NCBI GenBank assembly: GCA_040882285.1
Contig: JBBEBQ010000003.1
Coordinates: 1-43,847 of the forward strand
From: Gemmatimonadaceae bacterium
Lineage (GTDB): Bacteria > Gemmatimonadota > Gemmatimonadetes > Gemmatimonadales > Gemmatimonadaceae
DNA: 43,847 nt
Direction: 5' to 3'
A program made the position numbers and the translations under genes. Shown here one piece after another: positions 35,002 to 37,397 of the stretch. Each line of letters opens with the position of its first letter. Position 1 is the stretch's first letter. The notes under the pieces are model-generated. The model was not told where the DNA came from, ran no database searches, and saw only the letters and a program-made list of their open reading frames with translations.

Positions 35002-35610
35002 ATGCCAGCCACAGTCGACGCCCTCCTTCCGCTCAGCCTGCTCGAATCCGTACGTGGGGCTGATACGCCCGAGGACACGGAAGCCGAATATGTCCACGAG
35101 CTTCGCAACAAGCGACTCGGCCTCAGTGACACCGTGTACGCTGAGATCCAGCGGTACACGGACGACGTGAAGAAGAACCGGAGAGTGGGCAACGATAAAG
35201 CGATCGCGATTGCGAAGCTGATCGGGCGCCGGCCGGACGCGGAAGCGGTGTTCCGCGGCGCCGGCAGGCGGCTGGCGGGCGAGATGTACGACTCGATCTC
35301 GGGGACGCGCCGGGGGTTGGTGCGCTTTCTTCCGGCTGTCATATCCCGGCCACTCGCGCTGTCGGGCGCGCGCCGCGTCGCGCGCCGCTACCTGAACGGC
35401 TCGCTCAGCAGGGTCGGCGGCTACATCATGCTGTCGGTGGGCGAATCAGCCACCGCCAACACCGCCCCGCGCGGCATCGGCTGCACGTTCTACGAGGCCA
35501 ATCTCGGCGAGCTGTTACGGCTGCTGGTGGACGGGGGCGGGGCGATAGAGCACGTGCGCTGCATGGACCGGGATGAAGGGTCGTGCGAATGGCGGGCGGA
35601 GTGGAGATAG
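35002..35610 (+). CDS. Hypothetical protein with V4R-like C-terminus
   Basis: A 202-residue soluble protein. The C-terminal 60 residues (GCTFYEANLGELLRLLV, then HVRCMDRDEGSCEWRAEW) resemble the end of V4R/4-vinyl-reductase-type small-molecule-binding domains, including the late Cys pair. The N-terminal half is helical (TVYAEIQRYTDDVKKNRRVG) and not recognised. It may sense a ligand. It diverges from the biosynthetic operon across a shared promoter region, so a regulatory link is conceivable. Confidence 0.65.
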   Translation: MPATVDALLPLSLLESVRGADTPEDTEAEYVHELRNKRLGLSDTVYAEIQRYTDDVKKNRRVGNDKAIAIAKLIGRRPDAEAVFRGAGRRLAGEMYDSISGTRRGLVRFLPAVISRPLALSGARRVARRYLNGSLSRVGGYIMLSVGESATANTAPRGIGCTFYEANLGELLRLLVDGGGAIEHVRCMDRDEGSCEWRAEWR

Positions 35611-35636
35611 ATCGGGGGTTGGACTAGCCCGAGCGT

Positions 35637-36174
35637 TGTGCGTTTCCCGTTTTTCCGTGGTGCGTTATTGCGTGCCTATTTACTGCAATGCGGCCAGCAC
35701 CTTGGATCGCAGGCCGCAAAGCATTCGTCTGACGTCGATCGTTTCTGCATTTAGGGATTCCCATTGGGCACGGGGCAGTATCCCGTGGTCCCGGGCGAGC
35801 TGAAGTTGATACTCCAGCTCCATGCTGGATTTCCGGCTGATGTCGAGAAAACGCGCAAGCTCGGCCTGACTGGCCGCCCCGCAACCTTCCACGATATTGA
35901 AGGCGATCGACTCTGCTGCAGCGGTTATCTGCGAACGAAGAGAGGTGTATCCAGTGCGCGGAAGACGGCTGGTGGCGAGCCTGACGTTCAAGGCAAGAGC
36001 GTGCGCCTGGCCCCAAACGCGTAATTTGCGGTAGTCCTGCACGCCGAAGGCTGATCCTCTGCCTCTTGCACTAGCCCATCAAAAAACTTCGAGCTGATAC
36101 GAACCACCCCGCGACATCGCCGCCGTCCCGGCTATAACGTCCCAACGCAAAAACGGTTAAACGGGAAACGCACA
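35637..36174. mobile_element. Inverted-repeat-flanked cassette containing an S23-type gene
   Basis: A 22-base terminal inverted repeat (35637-35658 and 36153-36174) matches at 20 of 22 positions, with TGTGCGTTTCCCGTTT perfect on both sides. It encloses one gene, the four-helix-bundle protein. The interior is visibly less GC-rich than its flanks. No target duplication or transposase is seen. S23 proteins are best known from intervening sequences in 23S rRNA, which also have complementary ends. Confidence 0.7.
35680..36042 (-). CDS. Four-helix-bundle (S23/IVS-encoded) protein
   Basis: A 120-residue, all-helical protein of the family encoded in 23S rRNA intervening sequences and also found free in genomes. 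The opening MQDYRKLRVWGQAHALALNV, the RSQITAAAESIAFNIVEGCG helix and RFLDISRKSSMELEYQLQLA are characteristic. Function is not established; structural work on homologues shows oligomeric helix bundles. It is the only gene inside the inverted-repeat cassette and has lower GC than its neighbours, consistent with acquisition. Confidence 0.92.
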   Translation of the reverse strand: MQDYRKLRVWGQAHALALNVRLATSRLPRTGYTSLRSQITAAAESIAFNIVEGCGAASQAELARFLDISRKSSMELEYQLQLARDHGILPRAQWESLNAETIDVRRMLCGLRSKVLAALQ

Positions 36175-36221
36175 CCGCGCCCTGCCTTCCATCCGCTCTT
36201 GATCCCTATCTCCGCCTTGCA

Positions 36222-37397
36222 ATGCTGACTCCCCAATCCCTTCCATCCATTCAACAGGCCATCAGGGAATCGACGACGGACGGGTGGCTGATCTTCGATT
36301 TTCACGGCCTCAACCCCATCGCCTCCGGCATGCTCCGCCTCGAGGGCATGACCACGCGCCGCCTGTTCGCCTTCATCCCCCGCGAAGGGACCCCCGTGGC
36401 GATCTCCCACGCGATCGAGCAGGGCCCGTGGAAGCACTGGCCCGCCGAATGGAAGAAGCTCGAGTACAGCGGCTGGCGCGTGCTCGAATCGATGCTCGCC
36501 GAGGTCGTCGGCGGCAAGCGCGTGGCGATGGAGTACTCCGCGGGCGACGCCGTGCCGTATCTGGACCGCGTGCCGGCCGGCGTGATCGAGATGGTGCGCG
36601 CCGCGGGCGCCACGGTGGAATCGTCGGCGGATCTGGTCACGCGGTTTTATGCCGTGTGGAATGATGCGCAGCTCGCCTCGCACCAGCGCGCCGCGGAGAC
36701 GATCGCCGGCATCGCGCACGCTGCGATGTCGCTCGCGGGCGAGCGGGCGCGCTCGGGCTCGCCGATGCAGGAGTTCGAGCTGAAGCAGTGGATCCTCGAC
36801 CGGTTCGCGAAGGAAAAGCTGGAGACCGACCACGGACCCATCGTCGCCATCGGGCCCAACGCGGCCAATCCCCACTACGAGCCGACCGCCGGGGAGTCCG
36901 CGCCGATCGAGCGCGGCGCGGTTCTGCTCATCGATCTCTGGGCGCGCGAAGCGAACGGAGTGTACGCGGACCAGACCTGGATGGGGTCGCTCGGCGAGCC
37001 TGACGCGCGGAGCCTGAAGGTCTGGGAAGCCATCCGCGACGCGCGCGATGCGGCGATCGCTCTCCTGCGCGAGAGGCTGGCCGGCCCGACGCCGGTCCGC
37101 GGCGGAGAAGTGGACGACGCGGCGCGGGCGGTCATCGAGCAGCGAGGCTTCGGCCCGCAGTTCATCCACCGCACCGGCCACTCGATCGACCCGCGCGACC
37201 TGCACGGCTCGGGTCCGCACATAGACAACCTCGAGACCCGCGAGGAGCGCGCGCTCCTCCCGGGAGTCGGCTTCTCGATCGAGCCCGGGGTTTATCTACG
37301 CGGCGACGTCGGGATGCGTACCGAGGTCAACGCATTCGTGGCGCGTGATCTCGTCGTGACGCCGAAGGATATTCAGCGGGACCTGATCATCGTGTGA
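36222..37397 (+). CDS. M24-family metallopeptidase (aminopeptidase P / prolidase-like)
   Basis: A 391-residue pita-bread-fold peptidase. The N-terminal creatinase-like domain spans about 1-150. The C-terminal catalytic domain shows the full dinuclear metal set: Asp in LLIDLWA, Asp in YADQTW, His in IHRTGHSID, Glu in FSIEPGVY and Glu in RTEVNAF. It removes an N-terminal residue next to proline or cleaves Xaa-Pro dipeptides. No signal peptide, so it is cytoplasmic. TATAAC at 36133-36138 is a possible -10. It converges on and overlaps the next gene by 11 bases. Confidence 0.93.
   Translation: MLTPQSLPSIQQAIRESTTDGWLIFDFHGLNPIASGMLRLEGMTTRRLFAFIPREGTPVAISHAIEQGPWKHWPAEWKKLEYSGWRVLESMLAEVVGGKRVAMEYSAGDAVPYLDRVPAGVIEMVRAAGATVESSADLVTRFYAVWNDAQLASHQRAAETIAGIAHAAMSLAGERARSGSPMQEFELKQWILDRFAKEKLETDHGPIVAIGPNAANPHYEPTAGESAPIERGAVLLIDLWAREANGVYADQTWMGSLGEPDARSLKVWEAIRDARDAAIALLRERLAGPTPVRGGEVDDAARAVIEQRGFGPQFIHRTGHSIDPRDLHGSGPHIDNLETREERALLPGVGFSIEPGVYLRGDVGMRTEVNAFVARDLVVTPKDIQRDLIIV

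Follow-up and report, generated by a model that had tools for sequence, protein, structure and literature searches.

Inverted arms of seven-base repeats around S23 genes suggest an overlooked bacterial mobile element

The locus described here raises the question of how a gene of the S23 family, known from intervening sequences (IVSs) of 23S rRNA, comes to lie inside an inverted repeat between two protein genes, and whether such a block is able to spread. The origin and mobility of S23-bearing IVSs have been an open question since 1990 (PMC4990558). We analyzed a 43,847-nucleotide stretch of DNA from a Gemmatimonadaceae bacterium (the window), the genome to which it belongs (G000, the home genome) and genomes of relatives. 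The initial annotation had described an S23 gene within an inverted repeat in a low-GC block at 35637-36174. This description was borne out by a 26-nt repeat (23/26), a match to PF05635 (E 1.4e-26) and a GC content of 57.6% in the block versus 68.5% in the whole window, and the interpretation of the block as an IVS-like cassette (an S23 ORF with terminal inverted repeats) at an intergenic site was supported. Its arms consist of heptads and extend a little past the block, to about 35631-36180:

35611 to 36221, no strand: entire intergenic gap with the cassette inside it; relatives from other genera commonly have 28-60 bp here
35631 to 35673, minus strand: outer arm lying 3' of S23, plus-strand heptads GAGCGTT GTGCGTT TCCCGTT TTTCCGT GGTGCGTT ATTGCGT
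35680 to 36042, minus strand: S23 / four helix bundle gene encoding 120 aa from a GTG start, the coordinates including the stop, PF05635 and TIGR02436
36136 to 36180, minus strand: outer arm lying 5' of S23, minus-strand heptads GCGCGGT GTGCGTT TCCCGTT TAACCGT TTTTGCGTT GGGACGTT

The inverted repeat pairs 35633-35658 with 36153-36178 (88% complementary, 494 nt separating the arms). Its score of 18.5 was reached by none of 2,091 same-geometry placements elsewhere in the window (maximum 14), and these placements, together with the control blocks described below (0.7%), rule out a chance inverted repeat. The cassette lies between a 202-aa gene (35002-35610) and an M24 peptidase gene (36222-37397). 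Since both neighbors are encoded on the plus strand and S23 on the minus strand, S23 is antisense to both. The window contained no Rfam match at gathering thresholds, and thus neither the conserved RNA structure of a group I or group II intron nor any other known structured RNA or riboswitch accounts for the block. The cassette has the terminal inverted repeats around an S23 ORF that characterize an IVS; its location is between two protein genes and not in a 23S rRNA gene. The G000 assembly, which is 96.6% complete, lacks a 23S rRNA gene.

The product of the gene belongs to the S23 family, matching PF05635 with 93.3 bits (cut-off 33.8) and TIGR02436 with 90 bits (E 1.1e-25, cut-off 24). The dN/dS between G000 and G001 was 0.10, and the protein is under purifying selection. 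Its predicted model has a four-helix fold (pLDDT 95) and matched the structures of Xanthomonas XCC0516 (2gsc) and Bacteroides BT_0352 (2rld) with TM 0.81-0.85. The five chains in each of these two entries suggest that S23 is a pentamer. The next-closest fold was that of Avd (4dwl, and the ribonucleoprotein 8ub7 of a diversity-generating retroelement), and the PHROG Avd model matched S23 weakly (E 0.0018). Avd is a pentamer. No recognized catalytic domain was found in S23. A phage gene was ruled out by the lack of S23 matches in a phage collection of 50,697 records, and a known defence gene by the lack of a PADLOC match.

A neighbor-gene synteny search of 99 genomes revealed that the two genes flanking the cassette adjoin closely in many genera. 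The gap between them is about 28-60 bp in most relatives (35 bp in G004, 33 bp in G007 and 37 bp in G033), and these short gaps are empty sites, of the kind that the initial annotation had proposed to look for. The cassette was present at this site only in the genus of the window, namely in G001 (with 94% identity across the region) and G002 (75%). The inverted repeat is retained in both of these gene-bearing orthologues. Because empty sites exist and the repeat has been kept together with the gene, neither of the two findings that would have spoken against the annotation, orthologues with the gene but not the repeat or a block present throughout the clade, was obtained. The empty sites have diverged too far to define any target-site duplication. 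In five other genomes (G037, G017, G047, G011 and G018) the same gap holds short palindromes without S23. In the congeneric G003 the inverted repeat of this cassette forms the end of a contig (C102), as would be expected if a multi-copy repeat had interrupted assembly.

We examined 105 non-redundant S23 loci from the home genome, its relatives and a scan of named genomes; loci of the last group were picked by one S23 subfamily motif and span Acidobacteria, Planctomycetes, Proteobacteria, Chloroflexi, Hydrogenedentes and others. Flanking inverted repeats scored at least 16 in 87% of the 105 loci versus 0.7% of 1,073 same-contig control blocks, and the same score was reached by 63% of the cyanobacterial loci, which were fetched separately, versus 0 of 78 controls. 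Signatures of 23S rRNA were found near only 1 of 116 non-redundant S23 loci, where 23S ends beside S23 on the opposite strand. Nearly every sampled cassette is therefore outside rRNA. The initial annotation was thus right in placing the window copy outside rRNA, as the lack of an Rfam match also indicates, but this location is the rule rather than the exception among the sampled loci, and the idea that the rRNA IVS is the norm and the window copy an escapee found no support.

The arms are degenerate G-rich 7-nt repeats of four to five units apiece (median 4.4). Arm identity at lags of 7, 14 and 21 was 0.48, 0.445 and 0.407 versus 0.285 for shuffled arms, lag 8 giving 0.31, and the lag-7 periodicity had a z of 42. 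The arm located 5' of S23, read in the sense of S23, was G-skewed in 93 of 96 cases. Paired arms are in register, with an identity of 0.895 versus 0.647 after a shift by one unit, although the choice of register by the alignment favours the former value. Mismatches between arms showed no significant strand asymmetry in wobble pairs (110 versus 93), hence no indication that base pairing of the sense RNA has been selected for, and this form of RNA-strand selection was rejected. At one locus (L021) heptads are present although they were missed by the alignment. Inverted heptad arms are the normal state of S23 genes in many phyla; neither the periodicity of the arms nor this generality, nor the cognate palindromes lacking S23 that are described below, had been recognized by the initial annotation. 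Two S23 genes of the home genome (C25:144175 and C11:96163) are decayed, with an internal stop, and their inverted arms are still recognizable. A divergent S23-like domain (26% identity) in a 231-aa reading frame of the same genome (C27:18310-18633) is without heptad arms.

The unit varies between elements and is common within S23 clades, for example GGCTRTT, NNNCGTT, GGAATCCAAGTTTGGAGTGTGGCAGT or GTGACTA/GTGATCA, and clades carry the same units at different loci. An arm similarity score of at least 13 was found in 0-1% of the pairs with a protein identity below 40%, in 38% at 60-70%, in 68% at 70-80%, and in all pairs above 80%. The Mantel correlation between arm similarity and protein identity was 0.143, the maximum in 500 permutations being 0.098. 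Common descent of whole cassettes accounts for part of this co-variation.

Repeats of the same kind were found scattered without a gene. Dispersed repeats were sought in 400 kb of the home genome, and densities were compared with 60-400 kb per genome, most S23-rich relatives being sampled away from their S23 genes. The home genome had about 150 lag-7 segments per Mb, compared with 2-5 for other lags, and five relatives without detected S23 (1.08 Mb in total) had 0-2 lag-7 segments per Mb. Many of the segments in the home genome form palindromes of about 70-170 bp, grouped in families that match the arms of resident S23 genes, and palindromes of the window type (87-137 bp) were present at eight other loci. 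Among 61 segments located away from the S23 genes then known, 49 matched an arm of the home genome best, 7 a foreign arm, and 5 were tied, whereas the expected share of home arms was 10%. Column-permuted arms of the same composition reached a score of 20 in 1.7% of cases versus 72% observed, and composition therefore does not explain the matches to resident arms; the few permuted replicates with high scores are probably near-rotations of the same unit. The arms of the home genome gave 42 dispersed match clusters in its 400 kb versus 3 in 2.0 Mb of eight relatives, and the cognate matches of G021 and G007 arms were likewise concentrated in their own genomes. The sample of G007 contained no strict lag-7 segment, yet it held five dispersed matches to the S23 arm of that genome, and none was found elsewhere.

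Palindromes of GTGCTGC units in the home genome had no partner gene at first and led to an element (C5:162486-163128) with an eleventh S23 gene, overlooked by two family searches, which bears GTGCTGC arms; the expectation that a cognate gene exists was met. In G059, which has 12 S23 genes, the one arm tested had no dispersed match in 120 kb, and neither had the arm of L018 in the 400 kb of the home genome. The S23 clade with CTGGTTNNNGGTT arms (L018, L339 and L334) had no dispersed cognates in these 400 kb, and this family may be new or low in copy number. There are also long, perfect heptad arrays that lack a partner arm. Slippage of simple sequence at a single locus was ruled out as the whole story, because the units are found again across dozens of loci and in the two arms alike. 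The arrangement that defines REP/RAYT elements, a gene flanked by a palindromic motif scattered over the genome, was thus found here with S23 in the place of RAYT.

Turnover of the palindromes was followed in one 11-kb syntenic stretch among congeneric genomes. Palindrome P1 is absent in G002. The unit of P2 is GTGACTA in the home genome, GTGATTR in G001 and CAGGTAT in G003, both arms being changed. The G003 unit is a rotated form of GGTATCA, which makes up the arms of an S23 gene in that genome (L067/L345). P3 has a recognizably conserved center, and most of its heptads in G001 share one C-to-T change. In P2 and P3 (L296, L299 and L300 compared with L180) this change, from GTGACTA to GTGATTR, affects most heptads of G001, and some of the outermost heptads keep the old unit. 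From these differences it follows that entire arms are replaced or rewritten. Part of this turnover could come from slippage and from template switching at hairpins.

On balance, we consider it somewhat probable that the block represents a copy of a mobile element whose S23 protein reads its own heptad arms both in cis and in trans, in the manner of RAYT and REP but with a protein unrelated to RAYT. The element would have S23 as its single gene, placed between two inverted arms in which 7-nt repeats run in phase, and its protein probably forms a five-subunit ring or barrel, as in the solved relatives and Avd. S23 would recognize its own arms, as single strands or hairpins, by their phased units, perhaps with one unit per subunit, which the four to five units per arm would fit. 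With its help, both the cassette itself (in cis) and short S23-free palindromes built of that unit (in trans) would be copied or inserted into intergenic gaps. Since neither a reverse transcriptase nor a Y1 transposase was found in the genome, strand transfer might fall to replication or repair in the host, or else to an S23 activity not yet recognized. S23-bearing IVSs would then be the special case in which this element has inserted into helices of 23S rRNA, where RNase III cuts the stem. The analysis documents how the cassettes are built and how general they are, the polarity of the arms, the joint variation of protein and unit, the confinement of cognate palindromes to particular genomes, empty sites and insertion polymorphism, the turnover of units at orthologous sites and purifying selection on the protein. 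We infer that S23 binds the heptads, that it has a causal role in their spread and that the strand transfer is made by the host or by S23 itself.

Two other readings, both of them unlikely in our judgment, keep S23 away from DNA mobility or leave the repeats to the host. The arms may be stems cut by RNase III and selected for harmless residence in transcripts, S23 being a passenger or a binder of its own RNA and spread being rare and indirect. The in-register complementarity of the arms, a window element that folds better than its shuffles (z -3.05), cassettes within tight operons such as cas6|cas4 and nrdB|nrdA, and the known RNase III excision of the Coxiella IVS (PMC4990558) would all agree with such an origin. 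However, the arms lack wobble asymmetry, the window S23 is antisense to both neighbors, and this reading explains neither the period of 7 nor why palindromes without a gene have the same unit as a resident S23. The palindromes may instead be generated and spread by the host through slippage, template switching and recombination, with S23 as cargo or as a housekeeping or regulatory binder that tames them, a reading to which we give a similarly small chance. The rewriting of whole arms in P2 and P3 resembles slippage followed by quasi-palindrome correction, and the long perfect arrays lacking a partner arm would also be accounted for, but S23 genes lie within palindromes across phyla, the unit tracks the S23 protein, and relatives without S23 are almost free of heptad segments.

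Readings based on a borrowed enzyme fare worse. A retroelement with a reverse transcriptase acting in trans, in which S23 would act like Avd and a hairpin cDNA would be inserted, is suggested by the fold and the weak PHROG match of S23 and by the reverse transcriptases in some relatives; it is very unlikely, as no PF00078 match was found in the home genome, G001 or G002, each of which has about ten S23 genes. An RT-driven element was rejected on the same absence from the home genome, in which no match to the reverse transcriptase gene that defines a diversity-generating retroelement was detected. REP/RAYT identity was rejected because no Y1 (PF01797) transposase was found in this genome. If the cassette were simply a MITE belonging to some other transposon and S23 a passenger, terminal inverted repeats and short gene-free copies would be expected, as observed, but we regard this as scarcely credible; what the elements have in common is S23 and not their termini, which differ completely from one element to the next, different S23 clades have different units, and a transposase survey that covered Y1 found none in the home genome.

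For the window cassette we keep the reading of a mobile element whose S23 would recognize its own arms. The repeats of most S23 copies of the home genome are also scattered without the gene, which suggests an overlooked bacterial mobile element and a source for unexplained seven-base repeats. It may be, with a chance that we put slightly short of even, that S23 proteins in general are the trans-acting specificity factors of an unrecognized and widespread class of mobile elements without a recognized transposase or reverse transcriptase, each S23 reading a 7-nt code of its own and spreading and rewriting heptad palindromes throughout its genome, and that this class accounts for S23-bearing 23S IVSs and for much of the unexplained heptanucleotide excess in bacterial genomes.

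Heptanucleotide repeats are over-represented in many bacterial genomes by a mechanism that is not known, and G-quadruplex or translational roles have been proposed for them (PMC4679880, PMC4692102). They include TAACTGA (PMC4679880) as well as GGGAATC in Xanthomonas and GGGGA(C/T)T in Nostoc; the Xanthomonas arrays favor four units, and each genome has 70-75 inverted pairs of them (PMC4692102). These repeats resemble S23 arms in unit length and intergenic bias, and arms of cyanobacterial S23 genes (L374 and L376) hold GGGGATT/GGGGACT and CAGTTAT, which is TAACTGA on the other strand. The texts of PMC4679880 and PMC4692102 mention neither S23 nor a four-helix protein; the literature covered was open-access, and an earlier description may exist. 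S23 genes with heptad arms were found on plasmids between nrdB and nrdA (Nostoc edaphicum), and within CRISPR-cas operons between cas6 and cas4 (L379, pANA02 of Anabaena sp. 90) and between cas10 and cmr3 (L389, Picosynechococcus PCC 7003). A '23S rRNA IVP' has been listed among CRISPR-linked genes (PMC10910872), and such cassettes may be the reason. The pairing of S23 with heptads joins the question of IVS origin with that of heptanucleotide repeats and makes both testable, since it predicts the partners of proteins and repeats, the locations of cassettes and the effect of a knockout. If true, it would explain the genes for a 'four helix bundle protein' inside cas and other operons and would reveal a natural protein family with diverse 7-nt specificities.

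Compared with known systems, the cassette is closest in layout to the IVS of Coxiella burnetii 23S rRNA, with which it shares an S23 ORF, pairing inverted termini, a length of about 400-550 bp and a GC content below that of the host, and in which heptameric repeats of GACAGAT directly precede the S23 ORF (PMC4990558). Unlike a 23S IVS, it is intergenic rather than located in helix 9, 25 or 45 of 23S rRNA, and its unit also occurs in scattered gene-free palindromes. REP/RAYT systems (REPtrons) likewise combine short intergenic palindromes scattered over the genome with a gene whose flanks carry the same motif; in contrast, the protein here is S23 rather than a Y1 transposase, and the motif, a 7-nt unit repeated in tandem and in phase, varies from one paralogue to another. 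With Avd of diversity-generating retroelements S23 shares the four-helix bundle fold (TM about 0.78 with 4dwl and 8ub7), whereas the genome is without a reverse transcriptase and the window without a retroelement.
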